Source: Mollicutes bacterium (GTDB lineage Bacteria; Bacillota_I; Bacilli_A; Izemoplasmatales; Izemoplasmataceae). Taken from it: 39,782 bases of DNA. Location of the stretch: NCBI GenBank assembly GCA_003568315.1, contig PWYL01000049.1, forward strand, positions 1-39,782, written 5' to 3'. Positions 23,380 through 30,917 of the stretch are shown piece after piece (position 1 is the stretch's first letter; the number at the start of each line of letters is the position of its first letter). A program made the translations under genes and the position numbers. The notes beneath the pieces were generated by a model, which was not told the DNA's origin, did no database searches, and saw only the letters and a program-made list of their open reading frames with translations.

Positions 23380-25674
23380 TCAAGTGAAAGGGTCTTCGGG
23401 GAGATGGAAGAGGAACCCCTGTTGGAGGTTACAGGAGAGTCTTTGGAGGATGGCTTTCTGGTTCGCTGTCTCGACACCCTCGGCGATGATCTCCTTGTGC
23501 GAGAGATGGGTGATCTTGCGGATCATCCTGACAATCTCCTGGTTGCTCGGACTGCTGATTTTCTCGGTGAAGACGGCATCGATCTTGATGATGTCGAACG
23601 CGACATTCTCGAGGATGGAAAGCGACGAGTATTCCTTGCCGAAATCGTCGAGAGCGATGAGGAAGCCTGCGCGTTTGAACCGGCGGATCCTTTCAAGACA
23701 GAGTTCGAGGTTGTGCACGAAGGTCTTCTCGGAGACCTCGAGGCAGACATCGCCGGTGTCGATTCCGTGTTTTGCCAAAGCGTTTGTGAGATGCTCGGGT
23801 GTCTTCGGGTTGAGTACCGCTTCGGGGGTGAGATTCAAAGACAGTTTGGCATCGGCATATCCTTTCATCTGACAAAGCTTTGTGTAGCGAGAGAGCGTCG
23901 TGTCGATGAGATAGCGCTCCAGAGGATCCAAGAGGTTGGCGTCGCGGGCGATGTTGAGGAAATCCTCGGGGAGTACGTTTCCAAGGTCTTCATCATGCCA
24001 ACGCGCGAGTTGTTCGACAAAGGGGACATTTCCGGTGGAGACATCGCAGACCTTCTGGAAATGCACATCGATCGTTCCTTCGTCGATGGCTTTCCCGAGT
24101 CTTGCCGCGACAAGGATGTTCTGTTCGAGTTCCTCACTCATCCGTTTCTTGTAGCGGACGATGCGGTTGCCCATGGTTTTCGCGCTCTCCTGCATGGCGA
24201 GACTGGCGAGGGGGATGAGTTCGGTGGGATTGTCGGTGTCCTCGGGGAAACGGGCGAGGCCGATGCTCGTCTTGATCTCGAGATCGATGCCTTTGGCCTC
24301 GTGCGTCGAGAAGGCGATGTCGGCGAAACGTTCGACGAAATCGGAAAGATTCTCCTCCTTCGCCTCTTCGTTCACCGCGAACACGACGAACTCGTCACCC
24401 GAGTATCTGCAGACGAAACAGTCGTCTCTGGCGATCTCGACAAGACTCTGGGCGAGGCTTATGAGAATCTCGTCTCCGGTCTTGTGGCCGTAGTAGTCGT
24501 TGATGCGAGAAAACCCCCGGACATCGAGGAAAAAGGCGAAGGCGCGCTCGATGCCGTTCAAGGAGGCGATTTTGCCATAGAGTCCCTGCTGGTTCAAGAG
24601 ATTGGTCAAGGGGTCGTGGTCGCGGTCATGGGCCATGCGGCGGTTGTTCTCGATGAAATGGGTGATCTCGTGGCCGATGGCGAGGACGTGGTCGATGGCG
24701 CCGCTATCGTCGGGGATGGCTTCATAGCTCCAACGGATCCATTTGCGTCTTTCTTCGACATTGATGACGGAGGTCCCGGAGGCGCTTTTCTTCTCGAGCA
24801 CCTTGTCGAACCAGTATCGGTCTTTTCGACCCACGGACTTGTTGATTGTAAAGACGTCTTTTCCGATGACCTCTTCGCGTTTTTTCTCATAGACCCTGAG
24901 CGCTTCGTCGGAAGCATAGACCACAGTGCCGTCGGTCGCGAGTTTCACAATCAGGTCGCGGCTCTTCTCGAGCACTTTCCGGCTTTCTTCCTCGAGGAGG
25001 CGGAAGGCCCGTTCCTTCTCTTCGAGCTGTTCGCTGATGAACTCGATCCGGGTGGCGTCATAGGCGGTATAGCCATAGCCCTGAGGAAGCTCGAAAACGC
25101 CTTGACGAAACATCGTCGTGTAACTGTCGTGCTTCGGAAGACGCAAGCGGAAATGCACGGTATGTGAAGAATGCCACCCGGTCCTCCTTGTGGGAAAATA
25201 GGCTTTGTGGATATCGTCGGGATGGATGAGACCCTTGAATTCAAAAATCCGCAAAAGGAGGAAATGGTTGTCCAGGTCGTAACGCTCCACCAGCGTGTCG
25301 CTGAAATAGAGGACGACCTGGTCTTCGTGGTCCAAAAAGACCACCTGGATGGAGCTGTCCTTGATGTGGTCGTCGAAGCGCAGTCGGGAACGTTTCCGGT
25401 TGCCGGGGCTTGCTCCGGTGTAGTCGGACCCCGTACTGAAAAGAGAGAATACGGTGGATGTCGCGGGAGAGAGGGCGGCGATGAGACCGTGTTGGCCATT
25501 CAAGTGGAAGGCGGCAAAAAGGATGCATGCACAAACAAGCGCGAACACATGGATGTCCGGCGCTGTGGTCCTTTCGAGAAATGCGGTTCTCATGATGTGG
25601 ATCATAGAAGCGGCGAGTAGAAACGCGGTAACGGGGCGGATCCATGCTCGGCCGATGATGCATCTTCTGCTCAT
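23380..25674 (-). CDS. Membrane PAS-GGDEF-EAL cyclic-di-GMP protein
   Basis: 764-residue bifunctional-type cyclic-di-GMP enzyme. Two N-terminal hydrophobic segments (about 15-30 and 41-58) anchor it. A middle region holds a coiled coil (about 212-240) and a PAS-like domain (about 240-340). The GGDEF domain has SGDEF at 425-429. The EAL domain begins near 515 with EQLARW (EAL to EQL at 554-556), then N614, EVSE (646-649), DDFGKEYSSL (676-685, usually DDFGTGYSSL), K697 and AEGVE (731-735). Most catalytic and metal ligands of both domains are present, so either or both activities are possible; loop 6 of the EAL domain is altered. Its promoter carries the 29-bp element shared with the secreted peptide gene. 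Confidence 0.93.
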   Translation of the reverse strand: MSRRCIIGRAWIRPVTAFLLAASMIHIMRTAFLERTTAPDIHVFALVCACILFAAFHLNGQHGLIAALSPATSTVFSLFSTGSDYTGASPGNRKRSRLRFDDHIKDSSIQVVFLDHEDQVVLYFSDTLVERYDLDNHFLLLRIFEFKGLIHPDDIHKAYFPTRRTGWHSSHTVHFRLRLPKHDSYTTMFRQGVFELPQGYGYTAYDATRIEFISEQLEEKERAFRLLEEESRKVLEKSRDLIVKLATDGTVVYASDEALRVYEKKREEVIGKDVFTINKSVGRKDRYWFDKVLEKKSASGTSVINVEERRKWIRWSYEAIPDDSGAIDHVLAIGHEITHFIENNRRMAHDRDHDPLTNLLNQQGLYGKIASLNGIERAFAFFLDVRGFSRINDYYGHKTGDEILISLAQSLVEIARDDCFVCRYSGDEFVVFAVNEEAKEENLSDFVERFADIAFSTHEAKGIDLEIKTSIGLARFPEDTDNPTELIPLASLAMQESAKTMGNRIVRYKKRMSEELEQNILVAARLGKAIDEGTIDVHFQKVCDVSTGNVPFVEQLARWHDEDLGNVLPEDFLNIARDANLLDPLERYLIDTTLSRYTKLCQMKGYADAKLSLNLTPEAVLNPKTPEHLTNALAKHGIDTGDVCLEVSEKTFVHNLELCLERIRRFKRAGFLIALDDFGKEYSSLSILENVAFDIIKIDAVFTEKISSPSNQEIVRMIRKITHLSHKEIIAEGVETANQKAILQRLSCNLQQGFLFHLPEDPFT

Positions 25675-25775: not shown

Positions 25776-25781
25776 ATTGTA
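25776..25781 (-). promoter_or_regulatory. -10 box of the GGDEF-EAL gene
   Basis: TACAAT on the minus strand, 17 bp from TGTTCG, which overlaps the end of the shared 29-bp element. The poor -35 suggests activator dependence. Predicted leader is about 95 bases. Confidence 0.6.
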
Positions 25782-25799: not shown

Positions 25800-25828
25800 G
25801 AACAGCGCGGATATGTCGTAGTTTTGAA
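25800..25828 (-). repeat. 29-bp shared promoter element, copy A
   Basis: Identical over 29 bases to the sequence at 26813-26841, in inverted orientation. Read on the minus strand it starts TTCAAAACTACG and ends CGCGCTGTTC. It ends 18 bp before the -10 of the GGDEF-EAL gene, overlapping the -35 position. Candidate binding site of the adjacent HTH regulator. Confidence 0.9.
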
Positions 25829-25869: not shown

Positions 25870-26793
25870 TCAGACAACATGTTTTTTGAGGTAATTCAGG
25901 ACGAAATTGTGGAAGTTGATGTTGAAGTCTTTCTCGATGTAGCCCGTGAAAAGTTCGATCTTCTTCTTGTTGCCTTCCATATGGAGGACGTTGTAGCAAC
26001 GGAACAGGGAATCCTCGTAATTCACATAATCTTCCAACCGAAAATACGCAAGGGCTTTATAATAGTAGAAATATTCCCAGAGGTGATATGTTTTTCTCTC
26101 CATACCCTTACTTATGCCCAAATCACAAAAACGTATAACTTCGGAAAAATTCTTCACTATCCCGTGACTTTTACTCAATCGCATTAGTATTAGTGCATGC
26201 ATCACATCATCATAGCCACCACTCATAATACTACTTTCGTTGTCGAAAAGGTCTGTCAGTCTTTGAAGTAGCGTATTGCGGCGGGGCAATTTTAGATAAT
26301 TGAGCAGTGAACTGAGAATCAGAACTTCTATATCAGTAAAATAGTCTTGTTTCAGTATCTCTGGATAATCGATGAGGTTCATGGTTTTTTCAAATGCCTC
26401 ATCTTCTGATATCCGTTTTTGAATGAAGTCATCCAAGATTAGTGCATGATTGAAATAAGTCTTCTTTTCTTCATCAATTATAACATCCTTAGCAATCTCG
26501 TTTTTCAAGTCTTGAATGTTTTCATAATCACGATTTGCCACTGCGTTGTAAAATTGATTGAGCAATTTGGCCTGTATATTTTTTGCTTGTTCAAACTGAT
26601 TGATCAGCTTTCTACTCGGAATACCCAATTTATTGGCAAAAGCCTCAATTTTTTCATAAGGAATCTCACACTCACCGCTTCGATATCTTTGATACTGACG
26701 CAAAGAAACAACGCCATCGACAAAGTCTTCCTGCGTCAACTTTCTACCATATCTGATTTTTTCCAAGTAATTGCTGAGTTCCATAGAGTTCAT
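25870..26793 (-). CDS. HTH-TPR regulator resembling peptide-responsive RNPP/Rgg proteins
   Basis: 307 residues. An N-terminal XRE-type helix-turn-helix covers about residues 1-57 (LEKIRYGRKLTQEDF, VSLRQYQRYRSGECEIPYEKI). A long all-helical region without other motifs follows (about 65-307), as in the TPR-like peptide-binding domains of PlcR, Rgg and related regulators. The ATG at 26793 is chosen because AGGTGA lies five bases upstream; the frame is open to a TTG eight codons earlier. It is clearly more AT-rich than its neighbours. It is divergent from the secreted repeat-peptide gene across about 96 bp. Class by fold and context; exact family not proven. Confidence 0.8.
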   Translation of the reverse strand: MNSMELSNYLEKIRYGRKLTQEDFVDGVVSLRQYQRYRSGECEIPYEKIEAFANKLGIPSRKLINQFEQAKNIQAKLLNQFYNAVANRDYENIQDLKNEIAKDVIIDEEKKTYFNHALILDDFIQKRISEDEAFEKTMNLIDYPEILKQDYFTDIEVLILSSLLNYLKLPRRNTLLQRLTDLFDNESSIMSGGYDDVMHALILMRLSKSHGIVKNFSEVIRFCDLGISKGMERKTYHLWEYFYYYKALAYFRLEDYVNYEDSLFRCYNVLHMEGNKKKIELFTGYIEKDFNINFHNFVLNYLKKHVV

Positions 26794-26812: not shown

Positions 26813-26841
26813 TTCAAAACTACGACATATCCGCGCTGTTC
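26813..26841 (+). repeat. 29-bp shared promoter element, copy B
   Basis: Identical to 25800-25828 in inverted orientation; here on the plus strand. It ends 18 bp before the -10 of the secreted peptide gene and starts 20 bp upstream of the regulator's start codon, so binding could also affect the regulator's own expression. Confidence 0.9.
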
Positions 26842-26859: not shown

Positions 26860-26865
26860 TATGCT
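26860..26865 (+). promoter_or_regulatory. -10 box of the repeat-peptide gene
   Basis: TATGCT, 17 bp after TGTTCA, with the same geometry to the 29-bp element as at the GGDEF-EAL gene. Leader to the ATG is short (about 18 bases) and contains AAGGAGGAG. Confidence 0.55.
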
Positions 26866-26889: not shown

Positions 26890-27186
26890 ATGAAAAAAAT
26901 ACTGAGTTTTATAGTTTTGACTCTGGCAGCTGTTACTGTATTAGCCACAGAAAATAACAATGAAATGTATCTTGACTTTGACGACCATCACATCCCTGAA
27001 CATGTCACCGTGAGTGTCGTTCCTCAGCCTAATTTCAGGGCCATAGAAAGGTCACCCAGATTTAATGAAGACATTCAACCGATGGACTTCGACGACCATC
27101 ACATCCCCGAACATGTCACCGTGAACGCGCAGCCGATCTTCCTCGACTTCGACGACCATCACATCCCCGAACATGTCACCGTCTAA
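26890..27186 (+). CDS. Secreted multi-copy peptide precursor (candidate pheromone)
   Basis: 98 residues. The N-terminal signal peptide (KKILSFIVLTLAAVTVLA) has a plausible cleavage after VLA. The rest carries three perfect copies of the 13-residue unit DFDDHHIPEHVTV; the last copy ends exactly at the stop codon. The residue before each copy is L, M or L. The spacer between copies 1 and 2 contains SVVPQPNFRAIERSPRF. ATG at 26890 with AAGGAGGAG seven bases upstream. It is divergent from the HTH-TPR regulator and shares a promoter element with the GGDEF-EAL gene. Best guess is a precursor cut to release identical signalling peptides; a metal-binding or structural secreted peptide is the alternative, given the His and Asp content. 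Confidence 0.85.
   Translation: MKKILSFIVLTLAAVTVLATENNNEMYLDFDDHHIPEHVTVSVVPQPNFRAIERSPRFNEDIQPMDFDDHHIPEHVTVNAQPIFLDFDDHHIPEHVTV
26974..27183 (+). repeat. Three tandemly arranged 39-bp coding repeats
   Basis: Copies at 26974-27012, 27085-27123 and 27145-27183 each encode DFDDHHIPEHVTV. Copies 2 and 3 are identical over 38 bases; copy 1 differs only at synonymous third positions. Spacing is 111 and 60 bp, in frame. Confidence 0.97.
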
Positions 27187-27256: not shown

Positions 27257-27532
27257 ATGAAAAAACAAGAATTCATGGTTGAACTCGATGGTGTGATCGG
27301 AACCATCCACACCTATACGCGCAACCCCTTCATGATGGGCTACACCCGTGAACTGAAACGGGCTGTCAAGCATGACGACCTCGAGAAAGTCAGAATCATC
27401 CTCGACAAGGTCATCACCTGGTACAACGAGGAGATCGAGAAAATCAAGAACGACGAGTTCGTCTTCAACAAGTCCATGCATGAGAAGGCCTACTACATTC
27501 TCCGGCAATACCGCGAAGCGCTGCAACACTAG
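27257..27532 (+). CDS. Small cytoplasmic protein, unknown
   Basis: 91 residues, not recognised. Highly charged and probably all helical, with no signal peptide or membrane segment. It reads MKKQEFMVELDGVIGT at the start and VFNKSMHEKAYYILRQYRE near the end. ATG with AAAGGAAG upstream. It lies 70 bp downstream of the repeat-peptide gene with its own candidate promoter; no terminator is seen between them, so readthrough is possible. Codon use is GC-rich like the chromosome, unlike the regulator. A role in the peptide system is possible but unsupported. Confidence 0.7.
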   Translation: MKKQEFMVELDGVIGTIHTYTRNPFMMGYTRELKRAVKHDDLEKVRIILDKVITWYNEEIEKIKNDEFVFNKSMHEKAYYILRQYREALQH

Positions 27533-29218: not shown

Positions 29219-29452
29219 TCATTCGGAGAGGATCTTTTGCAGTCTCTTTGCCGAGGGGACCCGTCCTTTGACCTTGACTTCGCCGTCGACGACGAGAGCG
29301 GGGGTCTGCATCACGTTGTAATCGGCAAAGACGGCCGGGTCTTCGACCTTTTCCACCGTCGCCTCGATACCGAGTGCTTCGACGGCCTTTTTCGCGTGTT
29401 CCTCCAAAAGTTTGCATTTCTTGCAGCCCATGCCCAAAATCTTGATTTCCAT
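29219..29452 (-). CDS. Small thioredoxin-fold CxxC protein
   Basis: 77 residues of the redox-active disulfide protein 2 / MTH895-like thioredoxin family. The motif GMGCKKCKLLEEH has CKKC near residues 10-13, and MQTPALVVDG holds the cis-proline. Such proteins are commonly encoded next to DUF318/ArsP-type permeases, as here (27 bp downstream). Probably the redox partner of that permease or its substrate. ATG with AGAGGTG upstream; last gene of the ArsR-permease-thioredoxin operon. Confidence 0.88.
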   Translation of the reverse strand: MEIKILGMGCKKCKLLEEHAKKAVEALGIEATVEKVEDPAVFADYNVMQTPALVVDGEVKVKGRVPSAKRLQKILSE

Positions 29453-29479
29453 ATTTTTTCACCTCTCTTGAGATTTTTA

Positions 29480-30550
29480 TCAACCATAGATCCAGATTCC
29501 CGCCGAAAGTCCCACGACAGCGGAAAGAAGAATCACGAGCAGGAAATAGGTGAACGAACGCCGGATACCCAACACTTTCGCGATGACGATCATGTTCGGA
29601 AGACTCAGAGACGGGCCCGCCAAAAGCAAAGCGGTCGCCGGACCAAGATGCATGCCGCTTTCCAAGAAGGCCTGCACGATGGGAATCTCCGTCAGGGTCG
29701 CGAAATACATGAAAGCGCCGAATGTGCCGGCAAGCAGATTCCTCGCATACGTGTTCGTCCCGGCCAAAGGCACCATGATGTCCTCGGTGAGGAAGAAGCC
29801 CACGATGCCGGCGATGAAGATGCCGACGATGAAAAGCGGGATGATGCGTTTGGCGAGGTCGCCCGTGGCGCGCGCCCATTCCTTGAGCTCTTCAAGCTCG
29901 AACCAGAAAATGATCATGGCGACAAGCGCGATGGAAAGCGCCAGCGTGACATAAAGACTCACATACTGGCCGATGAGCATGCCGAGAAGGACGAGGAAGA
30001 AGAGCGCACTCTGCCACACTTTCCGCCGCCGCTCTTCCTCTTCTTGCGTGAAGAGTCCTTGATCGGCGGTGACTTTTTCTTTCTTTTGCCAGATAAGATA
30101 CATGAGGATGCCGATGACAAGCGACACGGCCACCGCGCCGACGATGCGCACGAAACCGACGGCGAGCCCGAAGAAGGAAAACGTCAACACGACGGCGAGC
30201 ACGTTCACGGCCGGTCCACTGAAAAGGAAAGTGACCGCCGGGCCGATACCGGCGCCCTTTTTCCTTATGGATGCGAACATCGGCAACACCGAGCACGAAC
30301 AGACGGCGAGGATCGCACCGCTCACGGACGCGACCAGATAGGAAATCCGCTTGTCGGTTTCGGGACCGAAATATTGTAACACCGCCCCGGGCGACATGAG
30401 CGCGACGATGGCGCCCGAAAGCGCGAAAGCTATGGTGAGGGAGATGACCCGTCTGAAGAGGAAGAAAACCTCCCGCTCTTCTCCCGTGAAATAGTCCGAA
30501 AGGGCGCGGACACCTTCCAAGAGCACTTCTGCCAAGTTGTCGAGAAACAT
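29480..30550 (-). CDS. ArsP/DUF318-family permease
   Basis: 356-residue polytopic membrane protein with about eight segments in two blocks separated by a charged loop (QKKEKVTADQGLFTQEEEERRRK). The family core AVCSCSVLPMFASIRKKGAGIGPA resembles the CSCS motif of ArsP-type permeases, and the second half has ATLTEIPIVQAFLESGMHLGPA. Characterised ArsP proteins export organoarsenicals; many DUF318 members are untested. The ATG at 30550 follows AAGGAG by nine bases; the frame is open upstream into arsR. Preceded by an ArsR-family gene (16 bp), supporting metalloid or metal-induced efflux. Confidence 0.87.
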   Translation of the reverse strand: MFLDNLAEVLLEGVRALSDYFTGEEREVFFLFRRVISLTIAFALSGAIVALMSPGAVLQYFGPETDKRISYLVASVSGAILAVCSCSVLPMFASIRKKGAGIGPAVTFLFSGPAVNVLAVVLTFSFFGLAVGFVRIVGAVAVSLVIGILMYLIWQKKEKVTADQGLFTQEEEERRRKVWQSALFFLVLLGMLIGQYVSLYVTLALSIALVAMIIFWFELEELKEWARATGDLAKRIIPLFIVGIFIAGIVGFFLTEDIMVPLAGTNTYARNLLAGTFGAFMYFATLTEIPIVQAFLESGMHLGPATALLLAGPSLSLPNMIVIAKVLGIRRSFTYFLLVILLSAVVGLSAGIWIYG

Positions 30551-30566
30551 GGATGCAAACTCCTTC

Positions 30567-30917
30567 CTAAGCGGTCGTTCTTTTTCTGTAGGTTTCGCGG
30601 AGGATGTCTTTTTCCGCCATCCTTGATCGGTCTTTGCGGATGGTCGGATCGTCGGAAAGCCTTTCGGCCAACAATCCCACGATTTTTTGGCCGAAGGCGT
30701 CGGCTGTGAGGGAATAGGTGACGAACCTTTCATCGCGGTTCGTCTTGACGAGACCGGATTGTTTCAGCCGGGAAAGGTGTTTCGAGATCTTCGGCTGGGA
30801 GAGGTCCAACACGACGACGAGGTCGCACACGCAAAAATCCCTCTCCCGTAAAGCCAGAAGGATGCGCAGTCTGGTCTCATCGGCGAGCGCCTTGTGGATT
30901 CCGACTGTTTCTTCCAT
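30567..30917 (-). CDS. ArsR-family metal(loid)-responsive repressor
   Basis: 116-residue winged-helix repressor. ALADETRLRILLALRERDFCVCDLV carries the classic CVCDL metal-binding box in helix alpha-3, used by ArsR for arsenite or antimonite. The recognition helix is LSQPKISKHLSRLKQSGLV. A basic C-terminal tail follows. ATG with GAGGAGG seven bases upstream. It heads the operon with the permease and the CxxC protein and should repress it through the palindrome over the transcription start. Confidence 0.93.
   Translation of the reverse strand: MEETVGIHKALADETRLRILLALRERDFCVCDLVVVLDLSQPKISKHLSRLKQSGLVKTNRDERFVTYSLTADAFGQKIVGLLAERLSDDPTIRKDRSRMAEKDILRETYRKRTTA

Follow-up and report, generated by a model that had tools for sequence, protein, structure and literature searches.

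The window analysed here (a 39,782-nt stretch of DNA, contig 9 of a 1.41-Mb draft genome) carries a gene for a multi-copy peptide precursor of 98 aa on the plus strand (26890..27186) and, divergent from it, a gene for an HTH-TPR regulator of 307 aa on the minus strand (25870..26793). Beyond the regulator lies a minus-strand gene for a PAS-GGDEF-EAL protein of 764 aa (23380..25674), and downstream of the precursor a conserved 91-aa four-helix protein is encoded (27257..27532, plus strand). The original prediction, made from the letters of this DNA, described a 98-residue protein with a signal peptide and three perfect units, the last ending at the stop codon, divergent from an HTH-TPR regulator gene; all of this holds exactly. 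It did not include the 29-nt repeat described below, the EAL gene behind the second repeat copy or the 91-aa gene, and it did not foresee c-di-GMP hydrolysis as the output. Elsewhere in the window an apparent operon (29219-30917) of ORFs resembling an ArsR-type regulator, a multi-helix permease and a small thioredoxin-like protein is unrelated to the finding.

The precursor ORF starts with ATG behind a good ribosome binding site (AAGGAGGAG) and consists of a signal peptide followed by three DFDDHHIPEHVTV units. The signal peptide MKKILSFIVLTLAAVTVLA (26890..26946, plus strand; read by eye from the sequence) has no lipobox Cys, and signal peptidase I would likely cut after VLA. Exact matches to the unit are located at 26974..27012, 27085..27123 and 27145..27183 (all on the plus strand), the stop codon following directly on the last Val, so that the layout reads MKKILSFIVLTLAAVTVLATENNNEMYL-DFDDHHIPEHVTV-...-DFDDHHIPEHVTV-NAQPIFL-DFDDHHIPEHVTV. 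The three 13-residue units have the same protein sequence, and their DNA varies at 3 positions (codon 2 TTT/TTC, codon 8 CCT/CCC, codon 13 GTG/GTC), all synonymous, as had been noted originally. Given three identical 13-mers within 98 residues chance is excluded, and the same design was found again in relatives.

For the regulator we place the start at an ATG (MNSMELS...) that is kept in relatives; an upstream TTG at 26817 is less likely because it would overlap the operator. The AlphaFold2 model (pLDDT 90.7) finds its best PDB folds in PlcR, ComR, PrgX and Rgg2, and, apart from one uncharacterised Listeria regulator, every annotated fold match at E<=0.001 is to PlcR, ComR, PrgX or Rgg. PDB profile matches to Rgg and ComR chains cover the N-terminal HTH (E 1e-5), HTH_3/HTH_19 match about half of the members, below threshold, and all Pfam and NCBIfam matches of both regulator and precursor fall under the cut-off, leaving no curated family name. 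Based on the fold and profile matches the regulator is a five-TPR RRNPP-type protein of a separate subfamily, and it shows three features of an RRNPP(A) receptor: an N-terminal HTH, a C-terminal TPR-like domain and an adjacent secreted-propeptide gene. The predicted RNPP/Rgg-like identity thus stands as to the RRNPP-type fold, but not as to Rgg proper, given the acidic Sec-type precursors and the operator of its own.

A 29-nt sequence occurs in exactly two copies in the 1.41-Mb genome, as a perfect inverted repeat (25800-25828 / 26813-26841). Copy A of this predicted operator (26813..26841, plus strand; core TACGACATATCCGCGCTGTT at 26821-26840) lies in the promoter of the precursor, and the identical copy B (25800..25828, minus strand), past the far end of the regulator gene, in that of the GGDEF-EAL gene; both have the same orientation relative to their own gene. 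At 19 nt past the operator core we find the -10 boxes TATGCT (26860..26865, plus strand; precursor) and TACAAT (25776..25781, minus strand; GGDEF-EAL gene), and in both promoters the -35 hexamer is a poor match. Over 57 promoters the -10 box at offset 19 averages 4.65/6 matches, against about 2 elsewhere, which indicates that the 3' half-site of the operator occupies the -35 position.

From this promoter architecture we read the operator as an activator site, with repression as the main rival. The regulator might instead repress both promoters, the peptide relieving repression or acting as co-repressor (PrgX-/Rgg3-like), and the overlap between operator and -35 position would fit such occlusion. 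Both Rgg3 and PrgX act as repressors in known systems, which provides precedent. Nonetheless, a half-site in place of the -35 box, with a poor hexamer in both window promoters, is typical of activator-dependent promoters, and the constant spacing from operator to -10 box is as expected for contact with RNA polymerase. We therefore regard the same module with opposite sign as a minority option, carrying perhaps one chance in a handful, and proceed with activation.

The regulon was searched by sequence pattern. A matching operator is present in nearly every precursor promoter of the relatives, and loci of the Izemoplasma type have a second copy just behind the regulator. The degenerate pattern matched 27 of the 150 relatives, mostly as such pairs (essentially zero for a reversed-pattern control), and the variants agree within a locus, L042 for example having TATGACATATCCGCCGTGTT in both copies. 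The operator of Acholeplasmataceae (AGGGCGTATACGCCCT) is palindromic almost throughout; a second copy near the regulator was not found in these loci, and the c-di-GMP output is thus not shared by all. The Acholeplasma-type pattern matched a single genome, as the set of relatives has few members of that clade. Acholeplasmataceae precursor promoters (L049-L067, L072) additionally have another inverted repeat, CCTAATTGATAATACAATTAGG, which is highly conserved and covers the -10 region between operator and ribosome binding site. Two genomes also have orphan operator copies that are not next to the regulator (L087, L088); the genes behind them encode related proteins of 156-182 aa, each predicted to have two hydrophobic stretches.

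In 18 full-length cases the second operator is followed by a gene for an EAL protein, usually PAS-GGDEF-EAL as in the window and twice EAL only. The set of EAL motifs (E(A/Q)L, N, ExxE, DD, K, EGVE, Q) is complete in 18/18 of these proteins, including the one in the window. The GGDEF motif, by comparison, reads SGDEF in only 3/18 (again including the window) and is degenerate or absent in the rest. In another clade (six loci) the output slot is taken by an HD-GYP protein, unrelated to EAL. Two unrelated families of c-di-GMP phosphodiesterases in one regulatory slot argue that its purpose is c-di-GMP hydrolysis, and the sequences point to control of a c-di-GMP-degrading enzyme by the second shared operator in most relatives that have such a site. 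Exceptions are three Izemoplasmatales-type loci in which the second operator precedes a gene for a MACPF protein (L068), a small secreted protein (L075) or a small membrane protein (L148). The MACPF-domain protein is encoded at L068 4569-6041, and an operator at L093 1501 (ZiA1) lies upstream of a secreted protein whose family is unassigned; these two sites show that outputs besides c-di-GMP exist.

Regulator homologues are present in 61 of the 150 relatives, and in 62 of 395 genomes in a class-wide scan. Matches with a name come from Mollicutes, for the most part from Candidatus Izemoplasmatales/Izimaplasma genomes of sediments and from Acholeplasmataceae, and they include the complete genomes of strains zrk7 and zrk2 as well as the ZiA1 genome. 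Plasmid and phage collections gave no regulator match at the E-value used, and among viral contigs a single one carries a relative. Consequently, the system looks chromosomal, and a mobile-element origin was dropped. The contig classed as viral (L147 2772-3909, IMGVR_UViG_3300040801_003036) encodes a regulator together with a one-copy precursor, DFGDSGDPDFVKT.

A search for similar repeats beside HTH-TPR genes, as originally suggested, was productive: a divergent precursor with DF[DE]DxGxPExV-like units (1-10 copies) was found beside 59 of 111 distinct regulator segments, both counts being approximate, as one gene may be represented by several fragmentary segments and the motif filter was loose. 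At the fetched loci the recurrent design is a signal peptide followed by units of the form [DG][FY][DE]DxxxPExV, in precursors of 41-182 aa with a Sec-type signal and acidic repeated units. The units are tandems of 13-14 residues, usually perfect and with a period of 13, and in most arrays the final one stops two residues past the Val, at or near the stop codon. Examples are GFDDDHFPEYVTV (4 copies), GFEELEDPEYVRI (7 copies), DFDDRDEPEFINI (9 copies), DFDDSGFPEFVRI (6 copies) and DFDDEDFPEFINL (10 copies), and single-copy precursors of 41-59 aa finish with the same motif (DFEDSGDPEFVTS, DFENSGEPEWVTR, DYNDSGLPEEVKS). One genome (L148) has three short precursor genes in tandem. About half of the fetched regulators had no recognised adjoining precursor; these are mostly distant paralogues or lie at contig ends.

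An independent search with the consensus array found none away from a regulator except at contig ends (L189, L199, L200, L202), where arrays stop because repeats break assemblies. Homologues without a neighbouring regulator, which had been named beforehand as evidence against a pheromone, were accordingly not encountered: arrays either adjoin a regulator or are cut off where their contig ends. Two leftover weak matches inside long unrelated frames (595-638 aa) look like chance. Arrays often coincide with contig ends (also L003, L007, L009, L012, L019 and L020), so that counts of copies and of gene pairs come out too low for metagenome-derived genomes. In isolate T1Sed10_81 (L059/L005) two stop codons break the regulator frame, due to either mutation or assembly error, and its seven-copy precursor array is intact.

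The units are identical inside an array and differ from array to array. In 27 arrays we counted 119 codon columns with synonymous-only variation against 10 with non-synonymous variation, which indicates selection on the peptide together with homogenisation; non-synonymous drift between copies, the other outcome named in advance as unfavourable, was thus not borne out. It might be argued that the precursor is a structural or ion-binding surface protein with repeats arisen via slippage and an incidental regulator, as slippage and homogenisation typically leave tandem arrays of identical units that vary in copy number, but one-copy versions occur, the pairing with a peptide-receptor fold and a shared operator is conserved over two orders, and non-synonymous changes are strongly depleted even at arrays with diverged synonymous sites, which makes this the least credible reading of all.

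Differences between peptides follow differences between receptors. The distance between peptides correlates with that between TPR domains (r 0.45), and with HTH distance held constant a partial r of 0.29 is left (permutation p 0.0005, in a test that is not phylogenetic). Given the TPR distance, the correlation between peptide and HTH is -0.04, i.e. the HTH adds nothing; at equal column numbers the partial correlations are 0.23 (TPR) and 0.05 (HTH). The anticipated covariation between repeat and TPR domain is therefore seen at the level of distances, and it is the pattern that the sequences of a peptide-receptor pair should be expected to show.

The 91-aa gene follows the precursor at a spacing of 13-98 nt (loci measured) and is also present beside distant regulator paralogues. 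A fold search with the protein returned generic helix bundles only. Its sequence, however, matches the N-terminal four-helix domain of SpbK (PADLOC E 5e-18; PDB 9phb E 2e-15), and on these matches we regard the two as homologous. SpbK is an anti-phage TIR protein of Bacillus subtilis whose N-terminal domain recognises a phage portal (PMC12847820). The likeness is confined to that domain: the 91-aa protein lacks the TIR NADase domain, its sequence ending after the four helices, and thus has the domain alone, in a signalling locus.

A conserved small gene after the precursor could also be that of an immunity protein, the precursor then being a multi-copy antimicrobial or toxin peptide whose production is controlled by the regulator; some regulators indeed control genes resembling secreted pore-formers (the MACPF protein of L068, and L093). 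The units, on the other hand, are short, acidic and non-amphipathic, the single-copy forms of 41-59 aa resemble ordinary RRNPP propeptides, peptide divergence tracks the TPR domain, and the gene across the regulator is a c-di-GMP enzyme, neither a transporter nor a modification gene. We consider such a function improbable.

Overall, we think it probable that the locus is an RRNPP quorum-sensing module: once back in the cell, the peptide would turn the regulator into an activator of the precursor gene and of the c-di-GMP phosphodiesterase gene. Its components and DNA sites are present as described; the binding, the sign of regulation, the ends of the peptide and every molecular step we infer from what is known of RRNPP systems. 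Sec would export the precursor and signal peptidase I, for which the genome has a gene, would cut the signal, after which extracellular or surface proteases may free peptides of about 10-13 residues. An Opp-type importer would bring these back into the cell (two OppA-like binding-protein genes, SBP_bac_5, are present in the genome), where they would dock onto the TPR domain of the regulator. The dimeric regulator on the palindrome, substituting for a good -35 box, would then recruit RNA polymerase, giving positive feedback on peptide production. High density would thus switch on c-di-GMP hydrolysis and favour a low-c-di-GMP state such as dispersal, and more unit copies may raise the peptide yield per transcript.

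With the five-TPR RRNPP(A) systems PlcR-PapR, PrgX, ComR-ComS and Rgg-SHP the module shares an HTH plus TPR-like domain of about 300 aa, an adjacent small secreted peptide gene and a palindromic operator overlapping the -35 region. The regulator, however, is only about 13-17% identical to solved members, and the divergent Sec-signal precursor with acidic DF[DE]DxGxPExV units, the operator of its own, the Mollicutes host and a c-di-GMP phosphodiesterase as directly neighbouring putative target set it apart. Propeptides of Rgg-SHP and ComR are very short, hydrophobic, exported by PptAB and without duplicated copies (PMC9765709), unlike the longer, acidic, Sec-type repeated precursors found here. 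In PlcR, NprR, Rap and AimR systems the propeptide gene lies immediately downstream of the receptor on the same strand (PMC9765709), whereas here it is upstream and divergent. A precursor releasing several identical signals had been taken for an uncommon design, but it is already known: RRNPP propeptides with up to six copies are described for NprR, PlcR, AimR and Rap, with none in Rgg/ComR (PMC9765709), and the two-copy pheromones Phr105 and Phr3T have been tested experimentally (PMC11343458). These likewise hold several, often identical, copies in one Sec-exported precursor; the difference lies in the 1-10 copies, in the usually perfect tandems of 13-14 residues and in the receptors, which form a family that does not belong to Bacillales or Lactobacillales. 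DSF quorum sensing also lowers c-di-GMP with density via an HD-GYP or EAL enzyme, but in that case the target of the signal is the enzyme or a kinase (RpfC/RpfG HD-GYP or RpfR GGDEF-EAL; PMC13220807), whereas here a peptide-receptor transcription factor would act at the promoter of the enzyme.

The RRNPP surveys consulted do not mention Mollicutes, Tenericutes or Acholeplasma, and the consulted passages of a recent review contain no link between RRNPP and c-di-GMP. In the open library covered here we found no report of peptide quorum sensing in Mollicutes, of this peptide family or of its c-di-GMP wiring. The novelty is best called one of subfamily, lineage and output, within the known RRNPP kind.

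Mollicutes are thought of as minimally regulated. If true, the module ties density sensing directly to c-di-GMP turnover in Gram-positive relatives. We lean, by a modest degree, towards the wider picture of a widespread, undescribed family of peptide pheromones in wall-less bacteria. In this view an RRNPP receptor has direct control over the breakdown of c-di-GMP, EAL and HD-GYP enzymes came under the same operator in separate events, and evolution can tune the gain of the system through the number of pheromone copies per precursor. Natural precursors with 1-10 identical copies, together with their matched receptors and operators, would open questions of pheromone dosage, processing and receptor specificity to testing, and relatives are available as complete genomes of the named strains zrk2 and zrk7.
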